A stretch of 64,000 nt of DNA from Opitutaceae bacterium. Its GTDB lineage: Bacteria; Verrucomicrobiota; Verrucomicrobiia; Opitutales; Opitutaceae. Location: positions 124,001 to 188,000 of the forward strand of contig JAIXWF010000016.1 of assembly GCA_027482185.1 (NCBI GenBank). Reading direction: 5' to 3'. Below, one piece after another: positions 37,982 through 55,360 of this stretch. The first letter of the stretch is position 1, and each line of letters begins with the position of its first letter. A program made the translations under genes and the position numbers. The notes under the pieces were generated by a model, which saw only the letters and a list, made by a program, of their open reading frames with translations, searched no databases and was not told the origin of the DNA.

Positions 37982-38012
37982 CCAAGGGATTCCTCCGGCC
38001 ACGGCGTATAAC
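37982..38012 (+). promoter_or_regulatory. Candidate ECF promoter P1
   Basis: CCAAGGGAT, a 14-base spacer and CGTATAAC lie 37 bases before the ATG of the first GPGP gene. The two boxes match those of P2-P4 (GAGGGAT-type and CGT(A)TA-type). It would drive GPGP1 and possibly the anti-sigma, sensor and sigma genes behind it. Confidence 0.6.
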
Positions 38013-38048
38013 GATCAACACGCTCACACTAAAATCCAAGGAGCCATC

Positions 38049-38357
38049 ATGAAAACCCTCACAAAACTATCGGTGGTCGCGGCGCTCGCCAGCGCCGCAA
38101 TTTCCTACGCCGGCCCCGGTCCCCAATTCTGGAATCGCCCCGCGACAAAAACCCCTTCGCCAAAAGTCGAGACGGCGGCGGCGGTCTCCCAGACACCGAC
38201 AAAAGCGGACAGCTCGGGCCTGACCTGCGCTCGGATGCTCGTGCCGCGCATCGGAGCATTCAAGCAGTCGCCCGTTTCCGTCGTCACCTGCACGCCCGAA
38301 ATGATGAAGAGCGACTGGCGCTGCCAGCAGGCGTGCGCTTTTGCCGCCAAAGGTTAA
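38049..38357 (+). CDS. Secreted GPGPQFW-family Cys protein 1
   Basis: This 102-residue exported protein has a signal peptide cleaved just before GPGPQFWNRP (start of the mature protein at about residue 23). A Thr/Pro/Ala linker follows, then four Cys (LTCARM, VVTCTPEMM, WRCQQAC). Its N-terminal motif recurs in the proteins at 39971 and 40437. There is a good ribosome site (AGGAG) before ATG 38049. Function is unknown. Location in a sigma-controlled metal region and the Cys/Met content suggest periplasmic metal binding. Confidence 0.75.
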   Translation: MKTLTKLSVVAALASAAISYAGPGPQFWNRPATKTPSPKVETAAAVSQTPTKADSSGLTCARMLVPRIGAFKQSPVSVVTCTPEMMKSDWRCQQACAFAAKG

Positions 38358-38371
38358 TCGCCAAACCAACC

Positions 38372-38408
38372 GCTCTTCGCCCGGCCAACGAACGCGTCGG
38401 GCGAGAGC
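38372..38408 (+). terminator. Strong hairpin between GPGP1 and the anti-sigma gene
   Basis: GCTC-T-TCGCCCG (38372-38383) pairs with CGGGCGA-GAGC (38398-38408), an 11-bp stem with one bulge and a 14-base loop. No T-run follows, so it is more likely an mRNA-stabilising or partial-attenuation element than a full terminator. It would allow GPGP1 to be expressed more than the regulators downstream. Confidence 0.45.
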
Positions 38409-38421
38409 ATTCCTCAATCCG

Positions 38422-38766
38422 ATGAAAGAAACTTACGATCCCAAGCTACGGGAAGTGCTCGCCGCGTGGCAGGTCTCGCCGCCACCGGCTCCTCGTTTCA
38501 AATCCGTCGTGTGGCAGCGGATCGCCGCCGCAGAGGCCCGCGACGCGCTCGGAGTGTGGGGGCGGCTGCGCGAATGGCTGATGGTCGAGCTCCCGCGTCC
38601 GGCCTACGCCTCGGCACTGCTCGCTGTCACCGTGGTCGCGAGCTTCACCGCGGCCAACCTGCACGCGAGTTACGCCCGCGAGCAATACCGCGTGGAATCC
38701 GCGCGCCAGTATCTGGCGTCGATCGATCCGCTCGCGATGGCCACCCACCCGGGCAAGGCGCGATGA
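38422..38766 (+). CDS. Single-pass anti-sigma factor candidate (CnrY-like position), module 1
   Basis: This 114-residue protein has a cytosolic N-terminal part (YDPKLREVLAAWQVSPPPAPRF then VVWQRIAAAEA) and one membrane helix (YASALLAVTVVASFTAANL). It resembles the protein at 49348-49686 in the same place of the second module (DPL-E-L-A ... P-P-AP-RF ... VW-I). In cnrYXH, CnrY is a small membrane anti-sigma. Sequence identity to CnrY itself is not evident, so the role comes from layout and topology. Its stop overlaps the ATG of the sensor gene (ATGA). Confidence 0.65.
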   Translation: MKETYDPKLREVLAAWQVSPPPAPRFKSVVWQRIAAAEARDALGVWGRLREWLMVELPRPAYASALLAVTVVASFTAANLHASYAREQYRVESARQYLASIDPLAMATHPGKAR

Positions 38767-39227
38767 AAAAATTGCTCATGGTGCTCGCCCTCGTCGTCGC
38801 CGTCGGCACGACGACGTATGTGGTCTGTTATCGGCGCGCAATGGTCGCCGTCGTCACGCCCGACGGCACCGATGCCGAGCTGGACTGGCTGAAAAGTGAA
38901 TTCGCGCTCACACCCGCGCAATACGAGAAGGTGCTCGCGCTGCACCACGCGTATCGCCCGGTGTGCGCCGATCATTGCACGCGATTTATCGCCGCGCGCC
39001 GCCAGCTCGACGACGTGCTCAAGCACCAGGCGAGTTGGTCTCCGGCCGCGGCGGCGGCCATCGCCGAGCAGGCGCAGATTCAAGGCGAGTGCCACGCCTC
39101 TATGCTAAAATACGCCTACGACGTGGCGGCGTGCATGTCGCCCGAGCAGGGCCGGCGCTATCTGGACATGATCAAGATGCAAATCACGGAGGGCGATCCG
39201 GCCGGGATGTTCGCGGCGGCCCGCTGA
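38763..39227 (+). CDS. CnrX/metal-resist family periplasmic sensor with Cys ligands, module 1
   Basis: This 154-residue membrane-anchored periplasmic helical protein belongs to the heavy-metal sensor/Spy-like group (LKSEFALTPAQYEKVLALHHAY, then helices ending CMSPEQGRRYLDMIK). It replaces the His ligands of CnrX with other residues but has Cys in VCADHC and GECHASM. That points to a different metal, most likely copper, which fits the adjacent Cus-type pump. It is coupled to the anti-sigma gene upstream, and the sigma gene follows six bases later. Confidence 0.75.
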   Translation: MKKLLMVLALVVAVGTTTYVVCYRRAMVAVVTPDGTDAELDWLKSEFALTPAQYEKVLALHHAYRPVCADHCTRFIAARRQLDDVLKHQASWSPAAAAAIAEQAQIQGECHASMLKYAYDVAACMSPEQGRRYLDMIKMQITEGDPAGMFAAAR

Positions 39228-39233
39228 TCCTCC

Positions 39234-39800
39234 ATGTCCGACGATGACGGCGATCTCATGTCCCGCCTGTGCGCCGGTGACGACGAAGCTCTCGATGCGC
39301 TGATGGATCGCTGGCAGGCCGCACTGCGAGGCTTTCTCTACCGTTATCTCCACAACGAGGAGGACGCGGCCGACGTCGCCTTGGAGACATTCGTGCGCGT
39401 ATATCGGAATCGCGAGAAATTCCGGCCGGGCGCGAAATTTTCGACGTGGATGTTTTCCATCGCGCTCAATCTCAGCCGGGACCACGCGCGATACGGCCGG
39501 TCGCGTCCCGTGGTCGCGCTTGAAGATGACGCGCTCGCCGCGGCCAGCGACCGCTCGGCTGAAGCGTCGGACGTTGCACCCGATACGGATTTGCTCCGGG
39601 TCGAAATGGCCCGTGCCGTGCGCGCCGCGGTCGAGGCGTTGCCCGATCAACTGCGGTCCGCTGTTCTGCTCTGCGAATACGAAAATCTCACGCACGCCGA
39701 AGCTGCGGCGGCCACAGGCTGCTCGGCGAAAGCGGTGGAAACACGACTCTACCGAGCGCGGCAACTGCTGCGCGATGCGTTGCAACGGCACCTGCGATGA
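39234..39800 (+). CDS. ECF RNA polymerase sigma factor, module 1
   Basis: This 188-residue sigma-70 family factor has region 2 (ALRGFLYRYLHNEEDAADVA, FRPGAKFSTWMFSIALNL) and region 4 (ALPDQLRSAVLLCEYENLTH, then KAVETRLYRARQLLRDAL). It is the H member of an anti-sigma/sensor/sigma module like cnrYXH. Likely targets are the promoter-like sites P1 and P2 that flank the module. Confidence 0.9.
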   Translation: MSDDDGDLMSRLCAGDDEALDALMDRWQAALRGFLYRYLHNEEDAADVALETFVRVYRNREKFRPGAKFSTWMFSIALNLSRDHARYGRSRPVVALEDDALAAASDRSAEASDVAPDTDLLRVEMARAVRAAVEALPDQLRSAVLLCEYENLTHAEAAAATGCSAKAVETRLYRARQLLRDALQRHLR

Positions 39801-39904
39801 ACGCAGCGCTGCCGGCTCCGCGGCGCATTCCTCCCATATTGGAACCGGAGCGCAGCGCGCGCGACGGTCACGGCAAGAAATGCACGACTAAGAGCAAGAA
39901 TTGC

Positions 39905-39936
39905 GCGAGGGAGACGAGCCTTTCCCCGCGTATAAC
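39905..39936 (+). promoter_or_regulatory. Candidate ECF promoter P2
   Basis: GCGAGGGAG, a 15-base spacer and CGTATAAC lie 34 bases before the ATG of the second GPGP gene. The CGTATAAC box is identical to that of P1. It would drive GPGP2, GPGP3 and perhaps the cus genes. Confidence 0.6.
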
Positions 39937-39970
39937 TTGATACCAACCGTCAGTCCAAAAACAGCCTCCC

Positions 39971-40390
39971 ATGAAAACATCAATCACCACTCCCTCACTC
40001 GCAGGCCCCAGTCTGGGCCTGCTTTTCGCAGCGTTCCTCGCCAGTAACGCCGTCGCCGGCCCGGGTCCCGAATACTGGAGGTCGCTCGGCCAGCCGAAGG
40101 CGGCAACCGTCGAGCCCGCGAAACCTGTCGCAGTGGAGATTCCGGTGTGCCCAGGCTCCGAAGTCGTCCCGGTCACAGCGATGAAGTCGCCGCAGTCCAA
40201 CGGCCGGCCGCCTCTCGTCGCCGTGCAGACGGGCACCCAACGCGTGTGCCACCTCTGCACCACCACCAGCGTGGTCATCACGAACGACTGGCCGAGCCAC
40301 CGCGGGCCGACCGTGCAGAAAACCGAAGTCGCAAAAGTCGGAGCAACTCACGTCTGCACCGAGGCATGCCCCACCTCATCGAAAGCGTAG
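39971..40390 (+). CDS. Secreted GPGPQFW-family Cys protein 2
   Basis: This 139-residue exported protein is cleaved before GPGPEYWRSLG. The mature part has a CxxC (RVCHLCTTTSVV), then a Trp/His segment and a C-terminal HVCTEACPTSSKA resembling the WRCQQAC end of GPGP1. From the CxxC onward it aligns with GPGP3 (VC-x-x-C-x-T-x-x-V, a GP step, GA-x-H/K-x-C). Function is unknown. It is preceded by P2. Confidence 0.72.
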   Translation: MKTSITTPSLAGPSLGLLFAAFLASNAVAGPGPEYWRSLGQPKAATVEPAKPVAVEIPVCPGSEVVPVTAMKSPQSNGRPPLVAVQTGTQRVCHLCTTTSVVITNDWPSHRGPTVQKTEVAKVGATHVCTEACPTSSKA

Positions 40391-40436
40391 TCACGTCCCC
40401 CACATCGCCCAACTTCCAATCTCACCAAATATTGTC

Positions 40437-40856
40437 ATGAAAACCATTCGCCTCAGCAAAAACCTCATCGGGCTCGGCTCCATGCTGGCCCTCGCAATCA
40501 GTCTGGGTTCCTCAGCTATTGCCGGCCCAGGCCCGCAATTCTGGAATCGTGCGTCGCCTGTCACCACCACCAAGGAAGCCGAAGCCTTAAAGCCGACCGA
40601 CACCGCCGTGATGGTCTGCGGCGCGTGCAAGACGGTCCTTGTGCGCGACGCGAAATACGTCGGCCCCAGCGGCAAGGGGCGCTACGAATGGTTCACTATT
40701 GGAGCGAAACACAAATGCGATCACTGCGGTGGCGAGATGTCCGTGGTCCGTGGCAAGACCACCGACACGATGCAGCACAATTGTTCAATGTGCGGTGAAG
40801 GCGCGGCGTTCTGCTGCGCGGTGAAAGCAGACGCCGCTCCTGCCGCGAAGAAGTAA
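40437..40856 (+). CDS. Secreted GPGPQFW-family zinc-ribbon-like protein 3
   Basis: This 139-residue exported protein is cleaved before GPGPQFWNRA. It has four Cys pairs: MVCGACKTVLV, HKCDHCGGEMS, HNCSMCGEG and FCC. This looks like a rubredoxin- or zinc-ribbon-like metal site in the periplasm. It lies 46 bases after GPGP2 and is probably in the same transcript. The motif shared with GPGP1 and GPGP2 is directly after the signal peptide, which is an unusual place for conservation. Confidence 0.75.
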   Translation: MKTIRLSKNLIGLGSMLALAISLGSSAIAGPGPQFWNRASPVTTTKEAEALKPTDTAVMVCGACKTVLVRDAKYVGPSGKGRYEWFTIGAKHKCDHCGGEMSVVRGKTTDTMQHNCSMCGEGAAFCCAVKADAAPAAKK

Positions 40857-40878
40857 TCGTTTGCGCCGCGCCCGTCGA

Positions 40879-40979
40879 AGAGCGGATTCCGTCACAACCC
40901 CCTGGCCATCCGTTCAACGACCACGCTTGCGCGAACGCGGCCCACGCCTCCGGGAAAATTCCCGGGGGCGAACCGCTCT
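40879..40979 (+). other. Structured gap between GPGP3 and the channel gene
   Basis: AGAGCGG (40879-40885) can pair with CCGCTCT (40973-40979), enclosing an inner stem CCGGGAA-AA-TTCCCGG (40950-40965). The transcript here should fold strongly just before the channel gene. It may tune expression between the GPGP genes and the pump genes, as does the hairpin after GPGP1. Confidence 0.4.
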
Positions 40980-41022
40980 AATGAAACCACCTGAATATTT
41001 TGAAGTCTCGCACCAGCTCGTT

Positions 41023-42396
41023 ATGAAAAGTCTCCGCACCATCGGCAAACTCTCCGGCCTTGGCGCCGCCCTAGTTGCCGCGATCAGCGGCTGCGCGCTG
41101 GCCCCATCAGCCGCGGAAAAACAGGCGCGCACCGAAGTCGCCCGGATCGGGACGGCAATTCGTCCCGCCAGCCCAAAGCCGCCGCTGCCGGACCTACGCA
41201 CCGATTCGCCGCTGACGGACTATGTGCACTTTGCCGTGCTCAATCATCCGCGCGTCGAGGCCGCCTATCACGAATGGCGCGCCACCGTCTCCGCGATCGC
41301 GCCCACTCGCGCGTTGTCCGATCCGCAGTTCACGTTCGAGGCCGACATCGCGGACACTCTGATGACGTTCATGCCGGGCCTGATGTTCGATTTCATGACG
41401 CCCGCCAAACGCGCCGCGATGGGACAGGAAACCGTCGGGGCAAGTCGCGCTGCCTATCGGATTTACGCCGGGGAAGTGCTCGAGGTCGCCGCCGGCGTGC
41501 GCAAGGCGTGGCTGGAGCTGGCCTACGTGGACGAAGCGCTGCGATTGCGCGAAAGTTCACTGCACGCGCTCGACCTGGCCACTGCGGTTGCGGGGGCCGA
41601 CTACACGACGGGCCGCGGCATGGGCACCTTGGAAATCCACGTGCGGCTGGCGAACGATGCCGCCAAGGTGCGCTCGGAACTCACCGCACTCGGCTACCGT
41701 CGCGACGCCGCGCGAATTCGTTTCAAGTCCACGCTGGGGCTCGCGCCCACGGCAGCCGATCCGGCCTGGCCCCAGGCGACGCTCGCGCCGACGACGCTCC
41801 CCAGCGAGGACGAACTCTGGCGCCGTGCGCAAGTGGCCAACCCGGAACTCGGCCGGATGCGCGCGATGGTGGAGATGGCGCTGGCCGGCATCGGCGTCGC
41901 CCGGCAGGGTGCGACCCCGGATTTTTCCCTCGGGGCGATGGCCGACTTCAAAGCCAGCCCGCTGTTGGTGCGGCCGACCGCGACCGCCACGCTGCCGATC
42001 TGGCGCGAGAAAATTGCCGCGAACATCGCCGCCGCCGAAGCACGCCGCGACGCCGCGGTCGCCCGCGTGAATGCGGAGCAACTGAACCTCGCGGCCGAAC
42101 TCGCGCAGATGCTCTACATGGTGCGCGAGAGCGAGCGCATGATCGCCTACATCGAGCAGTCGGCGCTGCCGAACTACGAGCGCGCCATCGCCACCCTCGA
42201 AGCCGGCTATCAGTCGGGCATGAACGGACCGGGAATGATTCCCGAGATCCGCATCATGGCGCTCGCGATGCGGGTGGAGCGCGCCGCTGCGCTGCGCGAC
42301 CGCGAGAGCGCGGTCACCGACCTGATGCTCCTGACGGCCGATGTCGCGCCGCCCGGCGCTCCGTTGCTCGCCGAATCCTCACTCTCCGCCCGCTGA
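41023..42396 (+). CDS. Outer-membrane efflux channel lipoprotein (CusC-like)
   Basis: This 457-residue TolC-family protein has a lipoprotein signal (AAISGCALAPS), then paired helical repeats (VLNHPRVEAAYHEWRATVSA, SDPQFTFEADI, YTTGRGMGTLEIHVRLANDA, YQSGMNGPGMIPEIRIMA). It is the outer-membrane exit of the copper/silver pump with the adaptor and transporter that follow. ATG 41023 was chosen since it starts the lipoprotein signal; an in-frame ATG at 40981 would bury it. Confidence 0.82.
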   Translation: MKSLRTIGKLSGLGAALVAAISGCALAPSAAEKQARTEVARIGTAIRPASPKPPLPDLRTDSPLTDYVHFAVLNHPRVEAAYHEWRATVSAIAPTRALSDPQFTFEADIADTLMTFMPGLMFDFMTPAKRAAMGQETVGASRAAYRIYAGEVLEVAAGVRKAWLELAYVDEALRLRESSLHALDLATAVAGADYTTGRGMGTLEIHVRLANDAAKVRSELTALGYRRDAARIRFKSTLGLAPTAADPAWPQATLAPTTLPSEDELWRRAQVANPELGRMRAMVEMALAGIGVARQGATPDFSLGAMADFKASPLLVRPTATATLPIWREKIAANIAAAEARRDAAVARVNAEQLNLAAELAQMLYMVRESERMIAYIEQSALPNYERAIATLEAGYQSGMNGPGMIPEIRIMALAMRVERAAALRDRESAVTDLMLLTADVAPPGAPLLAESSLSAR

Positions 42397-42415
42397 TTTC
42401 TTTTCCTGTCCAAAC

Positions 42416-44428
42416 ATGAACGCCTCCCTGCGCACCGTCGCATTCTTGACCCTCGGCCTGTTCGTCGCCGCCGCGCTGTTCGCGGCCGAGCAGCTCTACA
42501 CCTGCGGGATGCACCCGCAGATCATCAAAAAGGAGCCGGGCAATTGCCCTGTCTGCGGCATGAAACTCACGCCGATCCGTGCCAACTCCTCCGGCCAGAC
42601 GGCCGCAGGTGAGCGGAAGGCGAAATTCTACAAATCAACCATGATGGCCGGCGAAGTCAGCCCCAAGCCCGGCAAGGATTCGATGGGCATGGAGATGGTG
42701 CCCGTTTATGACGGCAGCGATTCCACGGCGACCAGCATCCAGATCGACGCTGCCACGATTCAGAAAATGAATCTCCGCACGGCGCCGGTCGGCCACGGCC
42801 CGGTGCGTCGTGAAATCCGCGCGGTCGGCTCCGTCGCCTACAACGAGCAGGGTCTGCGCGACATCACGACCAAGTATGAGGGCTGGCTGGAAAAGCTGCT
42901 CGTGAACGCCACGTGGGCCACCGTCAAGGCGGGCGACCCGCTGTTCGAGATCTACTCGCCGGACCTCTACAACGCGCAGCTCAACTACCTTGTCGCGCTC
43001 CGTTCCGAAGGCGAAGCCGGCGGCAACCTCACGCGCGCGGCCCTCGGTCGGCTGCAATTGTTCGACGTGCCGGCCGACGTGATCGCCGAGTTGAACCGGA
43101 CCCGGGAGGCCCGGCGCACGATCGTGTTTCGCGCGCCCGCCGATGGTGTGGTGATTGAGAAGATGGGTGTTGCCGGGCAGATGATGAAGCCCGGCGAGCG
43201 CATCTACCGCCTCGCCGATCTTTCGTCGGTGTGGGTGCAGGCGGAGATTTACGAAAAAGATCTGCCGTTCATCCGCGTCGACGCACCGGCCGCTGTGCGC
43301 ACCAGCTACGGCCCGGAGCGCACGTTCGACGGCACGGTGGAATTGCTGTTGCCGCAAGTGCAGGAGCAGACCCGCACCGCCTCCGCGCGCATCGTGCTCG
43401 CGAATCCCAATGGCGTTCTCCGGCCCGGCATGTTTGTCGATGTGCGGTTCGCCGCCCAGCTCGCCGACGATGCCGTGCTCGTGCCCGACACGGCGGTGCT
43501 GCGGAGCGGCGAACGCAACACCGTCTTCGTCGCGCTGGACGGCGGCGCCTTCGAGCCGCGCGAAGTGAAGCTCGGTGCCCGCAGCGCCGGCGACGTCTAT
43601 CAAGTCCTGAGTGGGTTGAGCGCGGGCGAGCGCGTCGTGATTTCGGGACAGTTCATGCTCGATTCGGAAAGCCAGCTTCGCGAAGCGATTCAAAAGATGC
43701 TCAAGCCCGCGAGCGCCGCAGCCGAGCCGGCCCCGGCCAGCGCGCCGGCTGCGCCCATGAAAAAGCAAAGCTCCGTCGTCGCGCCGGACGCCCTGAAGTC
43801 GCTCGCGCTCGCCGCCGCCGATGCCGCCTCCCCGCTCGCCCGCGACGACTTCGCCGGTTACCAAGCGCAGCTTCCGGCGCTGCGTGCGGCGTTCGCGGCG
43901 CTCTTCGCCGCCGACGAACACGCGGCCCACGGCCCGCTCGGCGCGTTCAAGGACGGTCTCGCTGAACCCGCGGACCTCAAGGCCGCGCGGCTGGCGTTCG
44001 CGCCCTTGAGTTCGGCCATTGCTGACGCCGTGCGGTCGGCCGGGCTTGCCGGCGACGCGGGCTTGCGAGTCTTCGAGTGCCCAATGGCGAAGGCCCGCTG
44101 GTTGCAGCGGGAGGCCGGCACTAAAAATCCTTTCTACGGCACGGCGATGCTGACGTGCGGCGACGAGATCGACGTGGCAGTCACCAAGCCGAAAAAGACT
44201 GGCGCGCTCGTCGCGCCGCCGCTCGATGCCCGTGCGATGGCCGCGCAATTGCCGCCGGGCCATCCGCCCATCGGTGCAGCCATGACGAGCCAGGATTTCC
44301 TGCGCTCGCAGATGGGCCTCGCTCCCGCCGGCAGCGCCGCCGGTGCCCCGGATGCGAGCTGCGGCAACTGCGGCATGTCAGCCGCGGCGATGGCGGCGGG
44401 CGAACCCTGCGCACACGACAAAAAGTAA
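42416..44428 (+). CDS. cusB: Copper-type RND adaptor with heavy-metal domains at both ends (CusB-like)
   Basis: This is a 670-residue periplasmic adaptor. A signal peptide is followed by a metal-binding domain (YTCGMHPQIIKKEPGNCPVCGMKL) read in two parts, and by a degenerate second copy (KFYKSTMMAGEV, KDSMGMEMVPVYDG). The adaptor core spans about 110-430 (RAVGSVAYNEQGLRDITTKY, FRAPADGVVIEKMGVAGQMM). A C-terminal DUF3347-like domain (FECPMAKARWLQREAG, PFYGTAMLTCG) and a tail with CGNCGM and PCAHDKK follow. The Met/Cys motifs are typical of Cu/Ag handling. It is much longer than E. coli CusB (about 400). Confidence 0.88.
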   Translation: MNASLRTVAFLTLGLFVAAALFAAEQLYTCGMHPQIIKKEPGNCPVCGMKLTPIRANSSGQTAAGERKAKFYKSTMMAGEVSPKPGKDSMGMEMVPVYDGSDSTATSIQIDAATIQKMNLRTAPVGHGPVRREIRAVGSVAYNEQGLRDITTKYEGWLEKLLVNATWATVKAGDPLFEIYSPDLYNAQLNYLVALRSEGEAGGNLTRAALGRLQLFDVPADVIAELNRTREARRTIVFRAPADGVVIEKMGVAGQMMKPGERIYRLADLSSVWVQAEIYEKDLPFIRVDAPAAVRTSYGPERTFDGTVELLLPQVQEQTRTASARIVLANPNGVLRPGMFVDVRFAAQLADDAVLVPDTAVLRSGERNTVFVALDGGAFEPREVKLGARSAGDVYQVLSGLSAGERVVISGQFMLDSESQLREAIQKMLKPASAAAEPAPASAPAAPMKKQSSVVAPDALKSLALAAADAASPLARDDFAGYQAQLPALRAAFAALFAADEHAAHGPLGAFKDGLAEPADLKAARLAFAPLSSAIADAVRSAGLAGDAGLRVFECPMAKARWLQREAGTKNPFYGTAMLTCGDEIDVAVTKPKKTGALVAPPLDARAMAAQLPPGHPPIGAAMTSQDFLRSQMGLAPAGSAAGAPDASCGNCGMSAAAMAAGEPCAHDKK

Positions 44429-44501
44429 CCGCCTCACTCGCAACCTGACCGCCCGAATCCGCAAACCACGCGGCGCGCTGCGTCCCGCAACGACCTTCTC
44501 C

Positions 44502-47500
44502 ATGCTCAAAGCGATCATCGACTTCTCGCTCAGGAACAAATTCCTCGTGCTCGCCGGCACGGTGGCGCTCGTCTGCGGCGGCATCTTCGCCCTGCAACGG
44601 ATTCCGCTCGACGCGATCCCTGACCTCTCGGACACGCAGGTGATCATCTACACCGAGTGGCCGGGGCAGGCACCACAGATCGTGCAGGATCAGGTGACGT
44701 ATCCGATCACGACGAAGATGCTGTCGGTGCCCTCCGCGAAAGTGGTGCGCGGCTATTCCTTCTACGGCTTCTCGTTCGTTTACGTGATCTTCGAGGACGG
44801 CACCGACCCGTATTGGGCGCGCAGCCGTGTGCTGGAATACCTGAGCGGACTCAGCGGCAGCCTGCCGGCGGGCGTGACGCCGCGCCTCGGGCCGGATGCG
44901 ACGGGCGTGGGCTGGGCGTTCATGTATTCGCTCAACTCGAAAAATCACGACCTCGCGCAACTGCGTTCCATGCAGGACTGGTTCCTGCGCTATCAGCTCG
45001 CGAGCGTCGATGGCGTCGCCGAGATCGCCTCGGTCGGCGGTTTCGTGAAGCAATACCAGATCACCGTCGATCCGCACCGGCTGCACGCCTACAACCTGTC
45101 CATCGCCGAGGTCGCGATGGCGGTGCAGAAGAGCAATGGCGAGGTCGGCGGACGCTCGGTCGAGATGGCCGAGAAGGAATTCATCCTCCGCGTGAAGGGC
45201 TACGTTTCCTCGGTGGAGGACCTGCGCAAGGTCGCCGTGGGCCGCGGTCCGGCCGGGACGCCCGTGTTGCTCGGCGAAGTCGCGAACGTCGGGCTCGGCC
45301 CCGACATGCGGCGCGGCATCGCCGAACTCAACGGCGAGGGCGAGACAGTCGGCGGCGTCGTGGTCGTGCGCTACGGCGTGGACACGCGCCAGGTCATCCA
45401 GGCGGTTCGCGCCAAGCTCGACCAGGCGATGAAAAGCCTGCCCGAAGGCGTCACCTATTCGGTGGCCTATGACCGCACCGCGCTGATCGTCCGCGCGGTG
45501 CGCACCCTCAAGGAGAAGCTCATCGAGGAAAGCGTCGTCGTCGCCCTCGTGTGCCTCGTCTTCCTGATGCACCTGCGCAGCTCGCTTGTGGCGATCATCA
45601 TCCTGCCGATTGCCGTGCTCGCCTCGATTCTGATCATGTTTGGGCAGGGACTGAGCGCGAACATCATGTCGCTCGGCGGCATCGCCATCGCCATCGGCGC
45701 GATGGTGGACGCGGTCATCATCATGATCGAAAACGCGCACAAGCACATGGAGCACGACGGCGGCAAGAAGCCGCATTGGGACATCATCCGCGATGCCTCC
45801 GTCGAGGTCGGCCCCACGTTGTTCTACTCGTTGCTCGTCATCACCGTCTCGTTTCTGCCGGTGTTCACCTTGCAGGCGCAGGAAGGCCGCATGTTCAAGC
45901 CGCTCGCGTTCACCAAGACCTACTCGATGGGCGCGGCGGCGCTGCTCTCCATCACGCTCGCGCCGGTGCTGATGGGCTTTTTCATCCGCGGCAAAATTCC
46001 CGCCGAAGAAAAAAATCCGGTGAACCGTCTTCTCATCTGGATGTATCACCCGCTGCTGGATCGCATGATCAAGTATCGCTGGATCGTGATCGCGGCGGCG
46101 GCGTTGATCGTGGGCTGGGTGTTCTTCCCGTGGAACGCGGTGGTGTCGCGCGTGCTGCCCGACGGCACGGCCAAGGAGCTCGCCTTCAAGCTCGGGAAGG
46201 CGTTTCCCTATCAAAATATCGGCTCGGAGTTCATGCCGCCGCTCTACGAGGGCGACCTGCTCTACATGCCGACGACGTTCCCCGGCATCTCGCCGACGAA
46301 GGCGCGGGAAATCATCCAGCAGACCGACCAGATCATCAAATCGTTTGCCGAGGTGCATCACGTCTTCGGCAAGATCGGGCGGGCGGAATCCGCAACCGAC
46401 CCCGCGCCAATGGACATGATCGAGACGACCATAATGCTCAAACCCGAGGAGGAGTGGCCCGTCGTCGACTTCATGGACGACAACGGGAAGGTCATCGCCC
46501 ATCGGCGGCGGACCATCGACGAACTCACGGCTGCGATGAACGGTGCCGTGCAGATTCCCGGTCTCACGAACGCATGGACGATGCCGATCAAGACGCGCAT
46601 CGACATGCTCGCCACGGGCATCAAGACGCCCGTCGGCATCAAGGTCGCCGGTTCCGATCTCCGCGAGCTGGAACGCATCGCCAGCGAAATTGAAGGCGTG
46701 ATCCGGCGCGCACCCGGCACGAGCAGCGTGTTTGCCGAACGCGTGATGGGCGGCAACTACGTCGAGTTCGACATCGATCGCGACGCCATCGCCCGCTACG
46801 GCCTCACAGTCGGCGAGGTGCAGGAGACCTTGCAGGTCGCGCTCGGCGGGATGCCGCTGACGACGACCGTCGAGGGTCTCGAACGCTACGGCGTGATTCT
46901 CCGCTACGAACGCGACTACCGCGAAAATCTCGAAGCCCTCCGCGAAATTCTGATTCCGGTGAAGGCGGGCGCGAAAGCCGGCGGGATGGGCGGCGCCGGG
47001 GGCGCAACGATGGCCCAGGTGCCGTTGAGCCAGCTCGCGAACGTGCGCGTGGTCGCCGCCCCGATGGGCGTGAAGAGCGAAGCCGCCGTGCCGAACGCAT
47101 GGATCTACGTCGATGTGCAGGGCGTGGACATCGGCAACTACGTGCGCGGCGCGCAGCGCACCGTGAACGACGCGATCCGCAGCGGCGAAATCAAGGTGCC
47201 GACCGGCTACAGCATTTTCTGGAGCGGCCAGTATGAATACATGCAGCGCGCCAAGGCGCGGCTCATGATCGTGGTGCCGCTTACGCTCCTGATCATTATC
47301 TTCATCATCTACCTGAACACGCAGTCATGGATCAAAACGTCCATCGTGCTGCTCGCGGTGCCGTTCTCGCTGGTCGGGGCGTTCTGGGCGCTGCACCTGG
47401 CCGGCTACAACATGAGTGTAGCGGTGTGGGTCGGCATCATTGCCCTTGCCGGCCTCGACGCCGAGACCGGCGTCGTGATGCTGCTCTATCTCGATCTCGC

Positions 47501-47816
47501 CTACGAGGACTGGAAAAAGAAAGGTCTGCTCACCTCGACCGCCGGTCTGCGCGATGCGATCTATCACGGAGCCGTGAAGCGCGTGCGCCCGAAGGCGATG
47601 ACGGCCGCCGTCATCATCGCTGGTCTCCTGCCGATCTTGTGGAGTCACGGCACCGGAGCCGACACGATGAAACGCATCGCGCTGCCGATGGTCGGCGGCG
47701 TGGTCACTTCGACGCTGATGGAACTCCTCGTCTATCCCGCGATTTTCTTCCTGTGGCGCAAACGCAGTCTGCCGGCGCCGGACCCCGTCCCGCCGGGCGA
47801 GTTAGCTTCCCCATGA
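44502..47816 (+). CDS. cusA: Copper/silver RND efflux transporter (CusA type)
   Basis: This 1104-residue inner-membrane transporter starts MLKAIIDFSLRNKFLVLAG, and IYTEWPGQAPQIVQDQVTYP, FYGFSFVYVIFEDGTDPYWA and WTMPIKTRIDMLATGIKTP are hallmarks of the CusA/SilA branch. The fourth helix region is GGIAIAIGAMVDAVIIMIEN. The Met-rich region MPPLYEGDLLYMPTTFPGIS fits monovalent copper or silver. A Gly/Ala insert occurs near AGGMGGAGGATMAQ. Its stop overlaps the ATG of a small Cys protein gene. Confidence 0.93.
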   Translation: MLKAIIDFSLRNKFLVLAGTVALVCGGIFALQRIPLDAIPDLSDTQVIIYTEWPGQAPQIVQDQVTYPITTKMLSVPSAKVVRGYSFYGFSFVYVIFEDGTDPYWARSRVLEYLSGLSGSLPAGVTPRLGPDATGVGWAFMYSLNSKNHDLAQLRSMQDWFLRYQLASVDGVAEIASVGGFVKQYQITVDPHRLHAYNLSIAEVAMAVQKSNGEVGGRSVEMAEKEFILRVKGYVSSVEDLRKVAVGRGPAGTPVLLGEVANVGLGPDMRRGIAELNGEGETVGGVVVVRYGVDTRQVIQAVRAKLDQAMKSLPEGVTYSVAYDRTALIVRAVRTLKEKLIEESVVVALVCLVFLMHLRSSLVAIIILPIAVLASILIMFGQGLSANIMSLGGIAIAIGAMVDAVIIMIENAHKHMEHDGGKKPHWDIIRDASVEVGPTLFYSLLVITVSFLPVFTLQAQEGRMFKPLAFTKTYSMGAAALLSITLAPVLMGFFIRGKIPAEEKNPVNRLLIWMYHPLLDRMIKYRWIVIAAAALIVGWVFFPWNAVVSRVLPDGTAKELAFKLGKAFPYQNIGSEFMPPLYEGDLLYMPTTFPGISPTKAREIIQQTDQIIKSFAEVHHVFGKIGRAESATDPAPMDMIETTIMLKPEEEWPVVDFMDDNGKVIAHRRRTIDELTAAMNGAVQIPGLTNAWTMPIKTRIDMLATGIKTPVGIKVAGSDLRELERIASEIEGVIRRAPGTSSVFAERVMGGNYVEFDIDRDAIARYGLTVGEVQETLQVALGGMPLTTTVEGLERYGVILRYERDYRENLEALREILIPVKAGAKAGGMGGAGGATMAQVPLSQLANVRVVAAPMGVKSEAAVPNAWIYVDVQGVDIGNYVRGAQRTVNDAIRSGEIKVPTGYSIFWSGQYEYMQRAKARLMIVVPLTLLIIIFIIYLNTQSWIKTSIVLLAVPFSLVGAFWALHLAGYNMSVAVWVGIIALAGLDAETGVVMLLYLDLAYEDWKKKGLLTSTAGLRDAIYHGAVKRVRPKAMTAAVIIAGLLPILWSHGTGADTMKRIALPMVGGVVTSTLMELLVYPAIFFLWRKRSLPAPDPVPPGELASP

Positions 47817-48085
47817 AAACCGGAATTTCCCACCGATGCATTCCCAGAGCACAACCGCGTGCGGCGGCGAACTGCGCTCTGTGCGACACACGACTCGCGC
47901 CCGACAGAGAGTTCTCGGTCGGCACCGCTGGCTCCAGAATCGGTGTGCGGTGCTGCCAGGAATGCGCCGGTCTTTTTGTCGTGTTCCTCGATGCACTCTT
48001 GGAGACGGCGAGAATTACTCCCGTCCCGTCGCACAACGACGTGCCGGCAAACGTCGACCCGTTCAGCCATGAATACTTCCGATGA
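47813..48085 (+). CDS. Small Cys-rich protein coupled to cusA
   Basis: This 90-residue protein has no clear signal peptide, two Cys pairs (NCALCDTRLA and RCCQECAGLF) and a short amphipathic end. The ATG overlaps the cusA stop by four bases (ATGA), so it is translated with the pump. It may be a cytosolic metal-binding or zinc-ribbon protein. I do not recognise the family. Confidence 0.6.
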   Translation: MKTGISHRCIPRAQPRAAANCALCDTRLAPDREFSVGTAGSRIGVRCCQECAGLFVVFLDALLETARITPVPSHNDVPANVDPFSHEYFR

Positions 48086-48305
48086 TTCCGGTGCAGAGAC
48101 GTGTGTCGTCTGCGGCAAAGCCGTCGCCGGCACGAGCGGAGTGACTCACATCTATCACGACCGGCGCCCGTTCGCGCTGTGCTGCCCGATGTGCGTGGAT
48201 ATGTTCCAACGCGCACCCGCGCGTTTCGCCAGCGGCGAGCGACCGCAGAGCGTGGTCGAGGATCTGCTCGCCGACCTGAAGTGGAAAAACTCTTCCCGCT
48301 GGTAG
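48069..48305 (+). CDS. Small treble-clef/YHS-like Cys protein
   Basis: This 78-residue protein reads ETCVVCGKAVAGTSGVTHIY and ALCCPMCVDMFQRAPARFA. CxxC, a basic-aromatic turn and CCxxC are the layout of YHS/TRASH-type metal-binding domains. Its ATG lies 17 bases inside the end of the preceding gene. It probably binds copper or zinc in the cytoplasm. The last gene of the cus cluster, it is convergent with the second sigma gene. Confidence 0.65.
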   Translation: MNTSDDSGAETCVVCGKAVAGTSGVTHIYHDRRPFALCCPMCVDMFQRAPARFASGERPQSVVEDLLADLKWKNSSRW

Positions 48306-48344
48306 TCGCACCGCCCGCGACCAATCGAAATCGCCCCATCCGAC

Positions 48345-48908
48345 CTATCGCTGCAAATCGCCGAGCAAGTCGCGCAGCTTCACCTTCGCGTGGTGGATGC
48401 GCAGCTCCACGGCCTTCGGGGTCGTGCCCATGATTTCCGCGGCCTCCTTCTGGCTTTTGCCTTCGAGGGAGCATAACATGAGCGGTAGCTTGAGCCGGTG
48501 TGGGAGCTGGTCGATGGCCCGTTGCAAGACTTTGAAGCGGTCCGCCTGCGCGCTCTGCTCGGACGGGATCGGCTGCGTGTCGGCGAGTTCGGTTCGCGCC
48601 CCGTCGTCTTCGGGCACGTCGAGCGGGATATCGTAGCGGTGCTTGCCGAGCCGGCGCAGACGGTCGCGGCAGAGGTTGACGGCGATCGTGTAGAGCCACG
48701 TCTTGACGGTCGATTGCGGCCTGAATGAAACCGCTTTGAAATACGCGCGCACAAACGTCTCCTGCGCCGCGTCGCGCGCCGCCGTCTCGTCCCGCAGGTA
48801 GCGGAACGCAAAACGGAAAAGCGGTTCGCGATGGCGTTGGATCAGTTCGTTCAGCGCCAAATCCTCGCCCGCCTTCAGGGCCTCGATCAGCGGCAGGTCC
48901 GGGTCCAC
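48345..48908 (-). CDS. ECF RNA polymerase sigma factor, module 2
   Basis: This 187-residue sigma factor has region 2 (PLFRFAFRYLRDETAARDAA, FRPQSTVKTWLYTIAVNLCR) and region 4 (LPHRLKLPLMLCSLEGKSQ, TPKAVELRIHHAKVKLRDLL). The GTG at 48908 was chosen because the sensor gene ends at 48916; a longer frame would overlap it. It is the H member of the second YXH-like module, and the promoters P3 and P4 upstream of this module are its likely targets. Confidence 0.88.
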   Translation of the reverse strand: MDPDLPLIEALKAGEDLALNELIQRHREPLFRFAFRYLRDETAARDAAQETFVRAYFKAVSFRPQSTVKTWLYTIAVNLCRDRLRRLGKHRYDIPLDVPEDDGARTELADTQPIPSEQSAQADRFKVLQRAIDQLPHRLKLPLMLCSLEGKSQKEAAEIMGTTPKAVELRIHHAKVKLRDLLGDLQR

Positions 48909-48915
48909 GGGTGAA

Positions 48916-49344
48916 TTACGGTGCGACGTCCAGACCTTGTTCGGCGAGTTGCAGCAGTTTGTCTCCCTGTGCGGGCGTGAGCACGCGGCGCATCTCAAAG
49001 ATATGCGCAATCGAAGCGTTCTGCAGCTCGCCCATATGCAGGTGAATCTTGCCGACCGCCGCAGAAATCTCGGGCGAGTCAGGCCGCCCCTGCCGGATGG
49101 CGAGCGCGAGCTCGTGGTTCGCCGCGCGCATCCGCTCGCGCAGAATCCGGTTCTGACTCGCGAACTTTTCCTCGATGGGCTCGAGCGCCTTGTGCTGTTC
49201 CGGGGTGATCTTCAGCTCCGCGTGCAGCCATTCGTGCGGATCGACTTTGGCGGCCCTTCGCGAATCCATCCAGCGGAGGGTGCAAAACGAGGAGAGCGCC
49301 GCGACCACCACGACCGCGACGAAGAATCCGATCAGGGTTTTCAT
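48916..49344 (-). CDS. cnrX: CnrX-type cobalt/nickel sensor, module 2
   Basis: This 142-residue membrane-anchored periplasmic sensor has one N-terminal helix (residues 5-20) and a four-helix hooked domain. His37, His41, Glu58, His114 and Met118 reproduce the five nickel/cobalt ligands reported for CnrX (H42, H46, E63, H119, M123), with identical spacing throughout. That is strong evidence for a Ni/Co sensor. ATG 49344 lies three bases after the anti-sigma stop. The adjacent pump is then probably a cobalt/nickel exporter. Confidence 0.85.
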   Translation of the reverse strand: MKTLIGFFVAVVVVAALSSFCTLRWMDSRRAAKVDPHEWLHAELKITPEQHKALEPIEEKFASQNRILRERMRAANHELALAIRQGRPDSPEISAAVGKIHLHMGELQNASIAHIFEMRRVLTPAQGDKLLQLAEQGLDVAP

Positions 49345-49347
49345 GGG

Positions 49348-49686
49348 CTACTTGCGGACCGAGTGGGCGGTGGCGACCAGCACCAAAGGCGTGTCGGGCG
49401 AGAAAACCTCGAAGTGTAGCGAGTCGCGCGCGAGCAGCGCGTGATCGGCGGAGCGGGCCATTATCGCAGGCACCAGGCCGGCGAGCAGGGCGAGGCCGAG
49501 CGCGGACAGGGCCAGTCGCGGACGTTCGAGCAGCTCGCGCCAGTTCAGTCCGAGGAGCGTTCCCAGCCTGCGATGTCGCCGGTGTTCGATGTCCTTCCAC
49601 ACGTCCGCCGTAAACCGATCTGGCGCAGAGGGCAGTGGTTGCTTCGCGTAGGCGCTAAGCAGTTCGTCGAGCGGGTCGGAGTTCAT
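49348..49686 (-). CDS. Single-pass anti-sigma factor candidate (CnrY-like position), module 2
   Basis: This 112-residue protein has a cytosolic N-terminal part (DPLDELLSAYAKQPLPSAPD, then RFTADVWKDI), one membrane helix (LALSALGLALLAGLVPAI), and a periplasmic tail. It is in the Y position before the CnrX-like and sigma genes and resembles the protein at 38422. It would hold the sigma at the membrane until the X protein reports metal. P4 lies just upstream. Confidence 0.68.
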   Translation of the reverse strand: MNSDPLDELLSAYAKQPLPSAPDRFTADVWKDIEHRRHRRLGTLLGLNWRELLERPRLALSALGLALLAGLVPAIMARSADHALLARDSLHFEVFSPDTPLVLVATAHSVRK

Positions 49687-49700
49687 GATTGTTAATCCAC

Positions 49701-49730
49701 TTAACGTAGGCGGGAGCCGTGATCCCTCAA
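49701..49730 (-). promoter_or_regulatory. Candidate ECF promoter P4
   Basis: On the minus strand TTGAGGGAT, a 15-base spacer and CGTTAA precede the anti-sigma ATG by 14 bases. The design is the same as P3 on the other strand, and the 9-base upstream box is identical. It would drive the YXH module, giving autoregulation. Confidence 0.68.
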
Positions 49731-49768
49731 CCTTTCTTCCATCGGCGGGGCTGATCCGCGCAAAAAGT

Positions 49769-49798
49769 TTGAGGGATGAGGCCGGGTCGCAGCGTTAC
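49769..49798 (+). promoter_or_regulatory. Candidate ECF promoter P3
   Basis: TTGAGGGAT, a 15-base spacer and CGTTAC precede the pump channel gene start (49815) by 16 bases. P3 and P4 face away from each other across 38 bases. The position also argues for the start at 49815, as a start at 49776 would lie inside the promoter. Confidence 0.68.
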
Positions 49799-49814: not shown

Positions 49815-51086
49815 ATGTTTCTCCGATTCGCCGTCGTTCTCTTTTCCCTTTCGGTCGCATTCAGCGTGGTGAGGGCAGCCGACCCGCTCACACTCGATGC
49901 AGCGGTTCAACACGCCTTGGCGCAGAACCGCGATCTCGCTGCCGCCGCCCTCGGAGCTGAGGCGGCCCGTGGACGCGTGGAGCAAGCGGGCCTGCGGCCC
50001 AACCCGGCGCTCGAGGCGGGAGCGCAGACAGACTTGCTTACAGGCAACAATGGGGCGCGCAAATTCGACTTGGGCCTGACCCAGGCGATCCCGCTCGGCA
50101 ACCGTCTGCGCGAGGCCCAAGCCGTGGCTCGCGTTGGCATCGGTGCGGCGTCCGCCGCGCTGGCTGATCGGCGGCGTTTGCTGGCGGGTGAAATCACCAA
50201 AATCTACGTCGATCTGTTCGCGCTCGACCAGGAAATCGCGCTGCGGGATCGGTTGATCAAGGCAAACTCGCGGCTGGTCGAACTCGCCCGCTCCAAGGCA
50301 ACGATCGGGGAAGTTTCTGCGGTCGAGGTGAACGCCGCCGCACTTGAGCAGGTAAAACTGGAGCAGGAGCGCACCAATCTGGCGGCCGAGCGCACGACGC
50401 GACTGCAAGACTTGAAGCCGTTGCTCGGCACACCGCCCGAAGAAGACTTGGCGGTGGCGGGCGATCTGCCCGGCCTGACGCAGGCGCTAGGGACCAATGC
50501 CGACGGCGAAAAATCGACGTGGAACCGTCCCGATCTGCGCTTGGCCGCGCTGGCCGTCGAACAGGTCGAGGCCGAACAGCGCCTCGCCCAAGTCGAGTCC
50601 AAAGGCGATCTCACCGTGGGCGCGACCTACGGCTACGACCGGAGTGCGGGAGGCGGAGCCGATCACGTGCTCGGCGCAAAAATCTCCATCCCCCTGCCGG
50701 TGCGAAACAAAAATCAGGGGCGTCTGCGTGAGCTTCGCGCCGAGCGGACGCGCGCCCAACGCGAGGCCGCCGCGCTCGAATTCAGAGTGGCATCCGAGGT
50801 CGGCTCGGCCCGTCAGCGCGCCGAGCAGGCTCGGAAAATTCTGGAAGGCTATCGCGCGGTGGTTTTGCCCTTGGGCGAGGCATCGGAGCGCGCGTTGGCC
50901 GAGGCCTATCAGCAGGGCCAGTTGCCCCTTTTCCAAGTGATCCAAGGTCAGCAGCTACGCCTCGCGCTCGAATCCGGGGTGCTCGCGGCCAGCAGTGCCT
51001 ACGCGAAAGCCCTGGCGGACTTGCAGACCGCCACGGGTCGGAATCCGCAGTTGATGAATCCGCCCGCGCTCAACGAACAGCCCTGA
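49815..51086 (+). CDS. TolC-family channel of the cobalt/nickel-type pump
   Basis: This is a 423-residue outer-membrane efflux protein. The signal peptide ends near VVRAADP, and helical repeats follow (LDAAVQHALAQNRDLAAAAL, RPNPALEAGAQTDL, LTQAIPLGNRLREAQ, YQQGQLPLFQVIQGQQL). It is the first gene of the C-B-A pump operon. The start was chosen from the signal peptide and P3. Confidence 0.88.
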   Translation: MFLRFAVVLFSLSVAFSVVRAADPLTLDAAVQHALAQNRDLAAAALGAEAARGRVEQAGLRPNPALEAGAQTDLLTGNNGARKFDLGLTQAIPLGNRLREAQAVARVGIGAASAALADRRRLLAGEITKIYVDLFALDQEIALRDRLIKANSRLVELARSKATIGEVSAVEVNAAALEQVKLEQERTNLAAERTTRLQDLKPLLGTPPEEDLAVAGDLPGLTQALGTNADGEKSTWNRPDLRLAALAVEQVEAEQRLAQVESKGDLTVGATYGYDRSAGGGADHVLGAKISIPLPVRNKNQGRLRELRAERTRAQREAAALEFRVASEVGSARQRAEQARKILEGYRAVVLPLGEASERALAEAYQQGQLPLFQVIQGQQLRLALESGVLAASSAYAKALADLQTATGRNPQLMNPPALNEQP

Positions 51087-51135: not shown

Positions 51136-52152
51136 ATGAAAAGTCCGCTCTTTTTCTTCGCCGCCTTGACCGCCCTCTCGGTGCCTGCCGCGCGCGTGTC
51201 GGCCCATGAAGGCCACAACAAAGCGCCGGGCGAATCCGGTGCCGGCCCGCTTACCGGCCCGGTCACACTCACGGCGACCGCCGAAAAGAATCTCGGCTTG
51301 AAAACCGAGGCCGCCGAGCTGCGCACACTGGAAAAAACGGTCGCCATCCTCGGTAACGTCGAACTCGACCCATCGCGCGTCGCGGCCATCGCCAGCCGCA
51401 TCTCGGGGCGCATCACCCGGCTCACGGTGAAGGAAGGCGACCGCGTGGCCGAAGGCGACTTCCTGCTCGAAGTCGAGAGCCGGCAGATCGGCGACCCGCC
51501 GCCGAAACTGCAATTCAAGTCGCCCATCGCCGCCACCGTTTACGAGCAGCCGATCTTCACCGGCGACAGCGTGGAACCCAACGCCCGCCTGCTTACGCTC
51601 GCCGACCTTTCCGAACTCTACCTCGTCGGCCGCCTCTACGAAGGCCAGGCCGCGCAGGTCAAGAAAGGCCAGACCGTCCGCATTCGGGCCGAGGCTTACC
51701 CCGAGGATCAATTCACCGGCACCGTCGAGGGCTACACACCGCGGCTTGATCCCGAGACCCGCACACTCGGCGTGCGCGTGCGCGTCGCCAATCCCGACCA
51801 GAAACTGCTGCCGAACATGCGCGCCACCTTGCAGATAGTCACCGCGCAAGCCGACACCGTGATCACCGTGCCGTTGTCGGCCGTGCTCGGCGAATCAGGC
51901 AATCTCTTCGTCTTCGTGCAGGACGATAAAGACCCGCACACGTTCACGCGCACGCCCGTCGTCGTCGGCCAGCGCGACGACCGTTACGCCGAAGTGATTG
52001 AGGGCGTGCTGCCCGGCGCGAACGTTGTGACCGTCGGCAACTATCAGCTTCAATACGTCGCGCCCACACCACCGAAGGAAGCGCCGGCGGCGGCAACCGC
52101 CGCCACGAAGGCTCCCGCCGCGAAACCGGCCGACGACGGCCACAAGCACTGA
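51136..52152 (+). CDS. RND adaptor without alpha-hairpin (CnrB/CzcB-like)
   Basis: This is a 338-residue periplasmic adaptor with a signal peptide and a His-containing start ([11 protein letters not shown]). The two halves of the lipoyl domain ([20 protein letters not shown] and [20 protein letters not shown]) are joined by only a short linker ([14 protein letters not shown]), so the usual coiled-coil hairpin is missing. Barrel and membrane-proximal domains follow, ending in a His/Ala-rich tail (DDGHKH). Like the adaptor at 18020 it is a hairpin-less form. Confidence 0.85.
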
Positions 52153-55100: not shown

Positions 55101-55360
55101 CGCTTGTGCTCGCCGCCGATCAACCGGGCAAGGAAATCCTGTATCCCGTTGCGGTGGTCATCCTCGGCGGGCTCGTCAGCTCCACGTTCTTGGACATGGC
55201 CGTGACGCCGGCGGTGTTTTTCAAATTCGGGCGTCGCGCCGCCGAGAAGTATCTCGAGCGCGCGAAAGTCGACCCGCTCGACGCCATCGCCCCGACCCCG
55301 TCAACGCCCGTCGCGGCCCCGGCATCACCCGCCGCCGCACCCGTGCTCGATTCTCGCTAG
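52163..55360 (+). CDS. Heavy-metal RND transporter of the cobalt/nickel-type cluster
   Basis: This 1065-residue inner-membrane transporter starts [20 protein letters not shown]. The fourth helix has [20 protein letters not shown], which lacks the DFG-D-E pattern of CzcA and of the pump at 14804, so its substrate differs. The neighbouring CnrX-type sensor makes cobalt or nickel the best guess. Periplasmic segments include [20 protein letters not shown]. The C-terminal tail is Pro/Ala-rich. Confidence 0.88.

Follow-up and report, generated by a model that had tools for sequence, protein, structure and literature searches.

The 64,000-nucleotide (nt) stretch of a groundwater Opitutaceae bacterium analyzed here (contig JAIXWF010000016.1, positions 124,001 to 188,000; hereafter the window) encodes two modules with the CnrYXH layout, that is, adjacent genes for a small putative membrane anti-sigma factor (Y), a CnrX-like sensor (X) and an extracytoplasmic function (ECF) sigma factor. 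Each module neighbors an operon for a resistance-nodulation-division (RND) pump, and four promoter-like sites precede these genes. We consider it likely that the genes form two side-by-side, largely insulated CnrYXH-like switches, one responding to Cu(I)/Ag(I) and the other to a divalent metal. In the proposed mechanism, Y and the periplasmic sensor X would hold the sigma factor (H) of each module inactive; periplasmic metal bound to X would loosen Y and free H, which would then transcribe from AGGG-N16-17-CGT promoters. Each switch would fire two promoters of its own, one before Y-X-H for autoregulation and one before the pump operon, as do cnrYp and cnrCp. With a common −35 element, different −10 elements (CGTATMAC for ECF1 and CGTTWA for ECF2) would keep the switches largely apart. 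Such control is ordinary in principle; what is new is the arrangement of two adjacent, probably insulated copies that have distinct −10 elements, one of them with a three-cysteine (Cys3) sensor and a CusA-type pump.

Module 1 lies on the plus strand in the order GPGP1-Y1-X1-ECF1, followed by GPGP2-GPGP3 and a CusCBA-like set of channel, adaptor and RND1 genes. In module 2, ECF2-X2-Y2 occupy the minus strand, divergent from a channel-adaptor-RND2 operon. The predicted class-1 promoters are P1a (37982..38012, plus strand; CCAAGGGAT-N14-CGTATAAC), located before GPGP1-Y1-X1-ECF1 and predicted to serve their autoregulation, and P1b (39905..39936, plus strand; GCGAGGGAG-N15-CGTATAAC), located before GPGP2-GPGP3 and pump 1. 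The predicted class-2 promoters are P2a (49701..49730, minus strand; TTGAGGGAT-N15-CGTTAA) before Y2 and P2b (49769..49798, plus strand; TTGAGGGAT-N15-CGTTAC) before the channel gene OMF2. The window sites thus have the form AGGGA-CGTATAAC in module 1 and TTGAGGGAT-CGTTA in module 2, and both promoters of each module carry the same −10. Direct reading of the window agreed with the first-pass annotation on the letters, spacings and coordinates of all four sites and on their positions ahead of GPGP1, GPGP2, the second anti-sigma gene and the channel gene. A metal-related role of the sites is suggested by the neighboring genes.

The experimental anchor for these sites is the cnr system. On pMOL28, AAGGGGGAG...CCGTATAAG stands before cnrY and GAGGGGAAG...CCGTATAGA before cnrC. 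Both promoters, cnrYp and cnrCp, read AGGG-N17-CGTATA, and with the mapped transcription starts given in PMC9045368 the C of CGT is at −12 in each. The gap from the first GGG to CGT, counted in the cnr promoters from the G that opens a run of five or four, is 17 in both of them and 16, 17, 17 and 17 in the four window sites. Class 1 (AGGG-N16 or N17-CGTATA) has the CnrH-type core, and class 2 (AGGG-N17-CGTTA) has it in part. The earlier proposal that the sites are ECF-type promoters is supported: the motif is that of a CnrH-type promoter and recurs before orthologous operons. The window resembles cnrYXHCBAT, the nickel-resistance switch of Cupriavidus metallidurans, in having a Y-X-H module and a pump that are each preceded by an ECF promoter, in the AGGG-N17-CGTATA core with a start (here predicted) 12 nt from the C of CGT, and in the sequence relatedness of X2 to CnrX and of ECF2 to CnrH. 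Unlike cnr, it has two modules side by side; module 2 is divergent from its pump and uses a CGTTA −10, and module 1 combines a Cys3 sensor and a sigma factor that falls outside the CnrH clade with GPGP genes and a pump of the CusA type. These similarities extend an experimentally anchored promoter to another phylum.

The sites recur at orthologous places. (T/C)TGAGGGAW-N-CGTTWA was found before orthologs of Y2 in five related loci (L084, L086, L145, L148 and L149), and AGGG(A/T)TT-N-CGTATCAC before orthologs of GPGP1 or Y1 in three (L083, L084 and L085). Across the window and 45 loci (46 sources, 654,511 bases), the class-1 pattern had 22 matches and the class-2 pattern 15 distinct sites (13 under one −10 form and 7 under the other, with 5 common to both), against 0 reversed-pattern matches for either class. 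Sixteen of the 22 class-1 matches lie before a GPGP-like gene, Y1, or a gene for an FCCKxC protein or a secreted protein resembling part of MFP1; among the 15 class-2 sites, 9 stand ahead of Y2, OMF2 or a gene for an FCCKxC protein. In 36 more distant ECF loci (438,043 bases), 0 class-1 and 2 class-2 matches were obtained with the forward patterns and 1 and 0, respectively, with the reversed ones. The counts from the 46 sources are descriptive because the class patterns were chosen after the first orthologs had been seen. Fairer tests were provided by leave-one-locus-out matrices, held-out loci and a pattern that ignores the fourth base of the −10; the training sites for both sets of matrices were picked by the class patterns (10 class-1 and 6 class-2). 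In the leave-one-out test, 17 of 32 X1-type operons and 7 of 8 X2-type operons beat all 100 shuffles. Eighteen of these 24 sites were 338–417 nt before X, roughly at the start of Y; of the six others, three (window, L084 and L085) belong to operons in which a GPGP1-like gene precedes Y. For the held-out test, six of 29 loci were dropped because they were already in training, followed by L225 and L248, taken as duplicates because their contigs are as long as those of L086 and L103, leaving 21; all shuffles were beaten by 10 of these, in 8 cases at 323–420 nt before X. Overall, position and spacing are conserved, and the suggested linkage of the sites to two pumps, two sensor modules and GPGP genes is supported.

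Locus L082 (metagenome-assembled genome Verrucomicrobia NC_groundwater_1845, a GTDB contig) is nearly identical to the window, with an identical ECF1 and neighbors that are 95–100% identical, and was excluded from the motif, sensor and tree counts. Close relatives are present among the rows (L094/L095/L096 and L089/L099), so the operon counts overstate independence. Named relatives include the Opitutaceae loci L085 and L104. Locus L084 (WYBE01000047.1), labelled Nevskiales, holds parts of both modules at 46–83% identity to the window and could reflect either mis-binning or transfer.

The pattern that ignores the fourth −10 base detected a site in 8 of 8 X2-type operons, all with T, whereas the sites detected in 17 of 32 X1-type operons had A in 12 cases, T in 4 and G in 1 (reversed controls, 1 and 1; Fisher p 0.0016, relatedness ignored). 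The searched stretch was extended or shifted for five loci known to carry an additional gene ahead of Y. The single ECF design put forward by the first-pass annotation therefore holds for the shared −35 but not for the −10, which comes in two variants that mostly follow their own sigma/sensor type, and its single small metal regulon is better read as two adjacent circuits between which cross-talk is possible. The sigma factors ECF1 (39234..39800, plus strand; 188 amino acids) and ECF2 (48345..49010, minus strand) also fall apart phylogenetically. In a midpoint-rooted tree built without reference members of other ECF groups and without the L149 sigma factor, whose translation was truncated, one clade of 12 with a local support of 0.975 unites seven ECF2-type proteins with CnrH and with four sigma factors from alphaproteobacteria, and the ECF1-type proteins are a separate group outside it. 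The distant sigma factors L150:4044, L087:2358 and L163:1614 fall outside both groups; the latter two were left out of the clade test. The best PDB sequence match of ECF1 is a sigma-H chain (6in7), with CnrH ninth.

The strongest competitor to two insulated switches is one cross-talking regulon, in which the shared AGGGA −35 would let either sigma factor fire all four promoters and any inducing metal would turn on both pumps. It would explain the common −35 and gap, the class-1-like site beside the module-2 sigma gene in L148, and the GTTT or GTTA that replaces GTAT in some X1-type operons. We nevertheless regard it as unlikely given that the −10 mostly follows operon type and that the window promoter pairs each share the −10 of their own module.

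The two-switch reading is also consistent with the sensors. The top seven PDB sequence matches of X2 (48916..49344, minus strand; PF13801) are CnrX/NccX chains, with E values of 2e-14 to 5e-13. We take the Ni/Co site of CnrX to consist of H42, H46, E63, H119 and M123. The window X2 retains equivalents of all five, and among X2-type sensors H42, E63, H119 and M123 are each present in 8 of 8 and H46 in 7 of 8, so module 2 would respond to a divalent metal through a classical CnrX site. X1 (38763..39227, plus strand; PF13801) has a CxxxC motif plus another Cys and lacks most CnrX metal-site residues. X1-type sensors do not have the CnrX site (H42 and H46 in 1 of 32 each, E63 and M123 in 0 of 32, H119 in 27 of 32); Cys occurs at CnrX positions 70, 74 and 112 in 32, 31 and 31 of 32, respectively, with all three in 30, and in 0 of 8 X2-type sensors. 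The held-out sensors were CCC in 17 of 21 loci, CCS in one, LCT in one and classical in two, for which a class-1 site is not expected. By sequence, X1 is only weakly related to CnrX in the PDB (E 0.0015). Its AlphaFold2 model (mean predicted local distance difference test score 85.9) has helices at 51–87 and 94–123, and CnrX and NccX account for its top 15 PDB fold matches, of which only the top-ranked, with E 7.4e-4, is below 0.001. From the hairpin geometry of the model, Cys68, Cys72 and Cys110 should face one another. At E 1e-10, an X1 profile had matches in 42 of 288 genomes from the phylum, including some classical CnrX types; a search of plasmids for X1 relatives at E 0.001 found none. 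Among the open-access literature matches listed, nothing on point was found on a CnrX-like sensor for copper or on a metal ECF sigma factor in Verrucomicrobia. The Cys3 variant of CnrX is a candidate copper sensor.

Two other kinds of metal-linked sigma systems were compared. CorE senses through its own Cys-rich C-terminal extension after region 4. ECF1 has no such extension, ending just past region 4 (179–180), and is accompanied by a separate sensor gene, although it shares with CorE and CorE2 that an ECF sigma factor is tied to metal. These two copper-responsive sigma factors belong to group ECF238, according to PMC8103513. CnrYXH-like modules were also observed on alphaproteobacterial plasmids (L220–L223), three of four beside copper genes: L220 and L222 neighbor copC/copD, L223 a copper-binding protein gene, and L221 a heavy-metal P-type ATPase gene. 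They resemble the window modules in that a small gene precedes those for a sigma factor and a 'periplasmic heavy metal sensor', and in having AGGGAT...CGTA upstream in L220 and L222 and CGGGAT...CGTATA in L221; no comparable promoter was found in L223. Unlike X1, their sensors keep the classical His/Glu/Met ligand set of CnrX rather than Cys3. The literature matches listed contained nothing on the function of these modules.

The two pumps differ as well. RND1 (44343..47816, plus strand) scores 1093 bits against CusA versus 464 against ZneA and aligns with CusA in two stretches over most of its length. We take the Met ligands of CusA to be M573, M623 and M672, and RND1 has Met aligned at all three positions. 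RND2 (52163..55360, plus strand), a CusA/CzcA-family pump, scores 493 bits against CusA and has no Met at any of the three. The CusA-like score and the three Met of RND1, together with the Cys3 sensor, favor Cu(I)/Ag(I) for module 1, in which a thiophilic monovalent metal, most likely one of these, would act through X1 to induce GPGP1, GPGP2, GPGP3 and the CusCBA-like pump. In E. coli, CusCBA, which effluxes Cu(I)/Ag(I), is controlled by the two-component system CusRS; pump 1 instead adjoins an ECF/anti-sigma/sensor switch.

The GPGP proteins are small predicted secreted proteins. GPGP1 (38049..38357, plus strand) has AGPGPQFW after a signal-like segment and four Cys; GPGP2 (39971..40390, plus strand) contains Cys and GPGP3 (40437..40856, plus strand) is Cys-rich. 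Across the 46 sources, nine genes have the A(G/S)PG..(Y/F)W motif. A clear class-1 site (0 of 100 shuffles as high) was seen for five of them and a weak match without the core (0 of 100) for one, and the remainder are the L148 gene (1 of 100), the L147 gene (25 of 100) and GPGP3 (84 of 100). No promoter of its own was thus found for GPGP3, which lies close 3' of GPGP2 and may share the GPGP2 promoter. GPGP-type genes are multiplied in L146/L147 (genome G135), with six GPGP3 matches over about 21 kb alongside a CusCBA-like operon. Small secreted (F/L)CCKxC proteins were also noted 3' of class-1 or class-2 sites (L147:4191, L148:10450, L098:7578 and L192). It is quite improbable that only the class-2 sites and the GPGP1 site are real, with the GPGP2 site degenerate or fortuitous and pump 1 expressed by read-through from upstream. 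P1b scores 15.3, compared to a leave-one-out score of 25.2 for P1a, and has G in place of T after AGGGA, but 0 of 100 shuffles scored as high as either site. Moreover, the class-1 pattern also occurs 3' of ECF1 in both L083 and L085, where it precedes a gene for a secreted protein resembling part of MFP1, and in genome G172 a channel gene with 57% identity to OMF1 lies 32 nt 3' of a class-1 match.

Genome scans bear on how specific the sites of the two switches are. Within the window, the class patterns match exactly the four sites, and AGGGA-N14-17-CGTWA has 2 matches versus 0.27 expected, a count reached in 1 of 100 shuffles. In the 6.43-Mb genome of the organism, AGGGW-N14-17-CGTATMAC and TGAGGGA-N15-16-CGTTW each have 2 matches, all of them window sites, with 0 and 1 reversed-pattern matches, respectively. 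These strict patterns revealed neither a wider regulon nor targets away from sigma genes in that genome; a looser class-1 form gave two further matches, both inside long frames. The loose motif advocated by the first-pass annotation fared less well: AGGGAK-N14-16-CGTWA gave 8 matches in this genome (2 being window sites) versus 6 reversed and is not specific, and loose forms over eight genomes gave 32 versus 27 and 23 versus 16. We rejected the loose scan as regulon evidence, keeping only the placement of its matches; the strict class forms are what single out the metal island. In genome G135, 5 of 6 class-1 matches fall within a 35-kb interval in which GPGP and pump genes are found as well (binomial 4e-11), and in G035, 3 of 3 class-2 matches fall within 6.4 kb (binomial 3e-9), both intervals having been picked after the fact. 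Two of the five clustered G135 matches lie ahead of a GPGP3-like gene and a gene for an FCCKxC protein, and three lie ahead of other genes. Genome G050 has a class-1 match before a gene for an LCCKxC secreted protein, which together with the G172 match suggests that relatives may have targets located elsewhere than beside the sigma gene. Despite the loose counts, it is hardly credible that all four sites arose by chance or are housekeeping promoters, even with a G+C-rich genome; for the set this is refuted by the strict scans, the recurrence at orthologous positions and the clustering, although single sites may still prove false.

Several observations weigh against two insulated switches. No obvious metal or module gene follows 6 of the 22 class-1 matches (L101, L103, two in L145 and two in L146) or 6 of the 15 class-2 matches. 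Fifteen of the 32 X1-type operons did not beat all shuffles; of the 21 held-out loci 10 did, two of these 10 (L227 and L247) with sites far from the expected place. Five of the 17 X1-type sites lack A at the diagnostic base, and those of L089 and L099 (GTGTTAA) are near class 2, so the −10 split is not absolute; the L148 class-1-like site adjoining a module-2 sigma gene allows for cross-talk. The genes that come after ECF1 in L084 are pump-2-like. CnrH belongs to the ECF2 clade yet uses CGTATA, indicating that the −10 changed within the clade and that −10 class does not follow the deep tree. Finally, the alphaproteobacterial sensors with a classical site also sit beside copper genes, such that the ligand set alone does not fix the metal.

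Applying the −12 rule of cnr predicts starts at 38017 (P1a), 39941 (P1b), 49694 (P2a) and 49805 (P2b), with leaders of 32, 30, 8 (to the Y2 ATG) and 10 nt (to the OMF2 ATG). The module 2 values differ from the 24–25 nt of cnr. For eight class-2 operons (window [49686–49706], L084, L086, L145, L148, L149, L151 and L155), the predicted leaders before Y are 8 nt once, 6 nt twice, 5 nt once and 1 nt four times. Among the eight class-1 operons lacking GPGP1 that were inspected, they range from 0 to 52 nt, five being at most 9. If the predicted starts are right, class-2 operons would produce near-leaderless anti-sigma messages, a subject on which the open-access literature matches listed held nothing on point. 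Putting these elements together, we tentatively envision a rebuilt CnrX widespread in Verrucomicrobiota, in which the Ni/Co site gave way to CxxxC plus a Cys about two helix turns away, as a Cu(I)/Ag(I) sigma-releasing switch for CusCBA-like pumps and small Cys-bearing GPGP proteins. It would be kept from the adjacent divalent-metal version by the −10 alone, and the near-leaderless class-2 message could set the anti-sigma:sigma ratio by translation. The window would offer two closely related, apparently insulated metal-responsive sigma/promoter pairs with two testable −10 codes for neighboring sigma factors, as well as a reason to view the uncharacterized GPGP proteins as metal-handling factors.

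The remaining genes of the two modules complete this layout. Y1 (38422..38766, plus strand) and Y2 (49348..49686, minus strand) are putative CnrY-like membrane anti-sigma factors. Neither they nor GPGP1, GPGP2 and GPGP3 had a Pfam match at E 0.01, so the anti-sigma assignment is based on position and a hydrophobic segment. Pump 1 also includes the TolC-like outer-membrane channel OMF1 (40861..42396, plus strand; weak family match) and the CusB-like adaptor MFP1 (42341..44428, plus strand), whose best model, CusB NF007303, matched at E 3e-48, under its cut-off. In pump 2, the outer-membrane channel OMF2 (49815..51086, plus strand; OEP match) is followed by the RND adaptor MFP2 (51136..52152, plus strand). 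After RND1, positions 47859–48305 encode an LCCPMC stretch, similar to the (F/L)CCKxC motif, with a sub-threshold match to the Pfam TRASH domain. A few kb before the metal island, an open reading frame at 33717–35216 matches the type IV coupling protein families PF10412, PF02534 and PF12696, which hints that a mobile element may carry the island. The same genome contains a third X-ECF pair 7.7 kb past the window (L144:7714-8752; G000:C12:195714-196752), with a Cys3-type sensor and a sigma factor 46–47% identical to ECF1; its best upstream site, AGGGTT...GTGTAGGGC, was not above shuffles. An RND2-like pump is encoded at L144:14207-17293.

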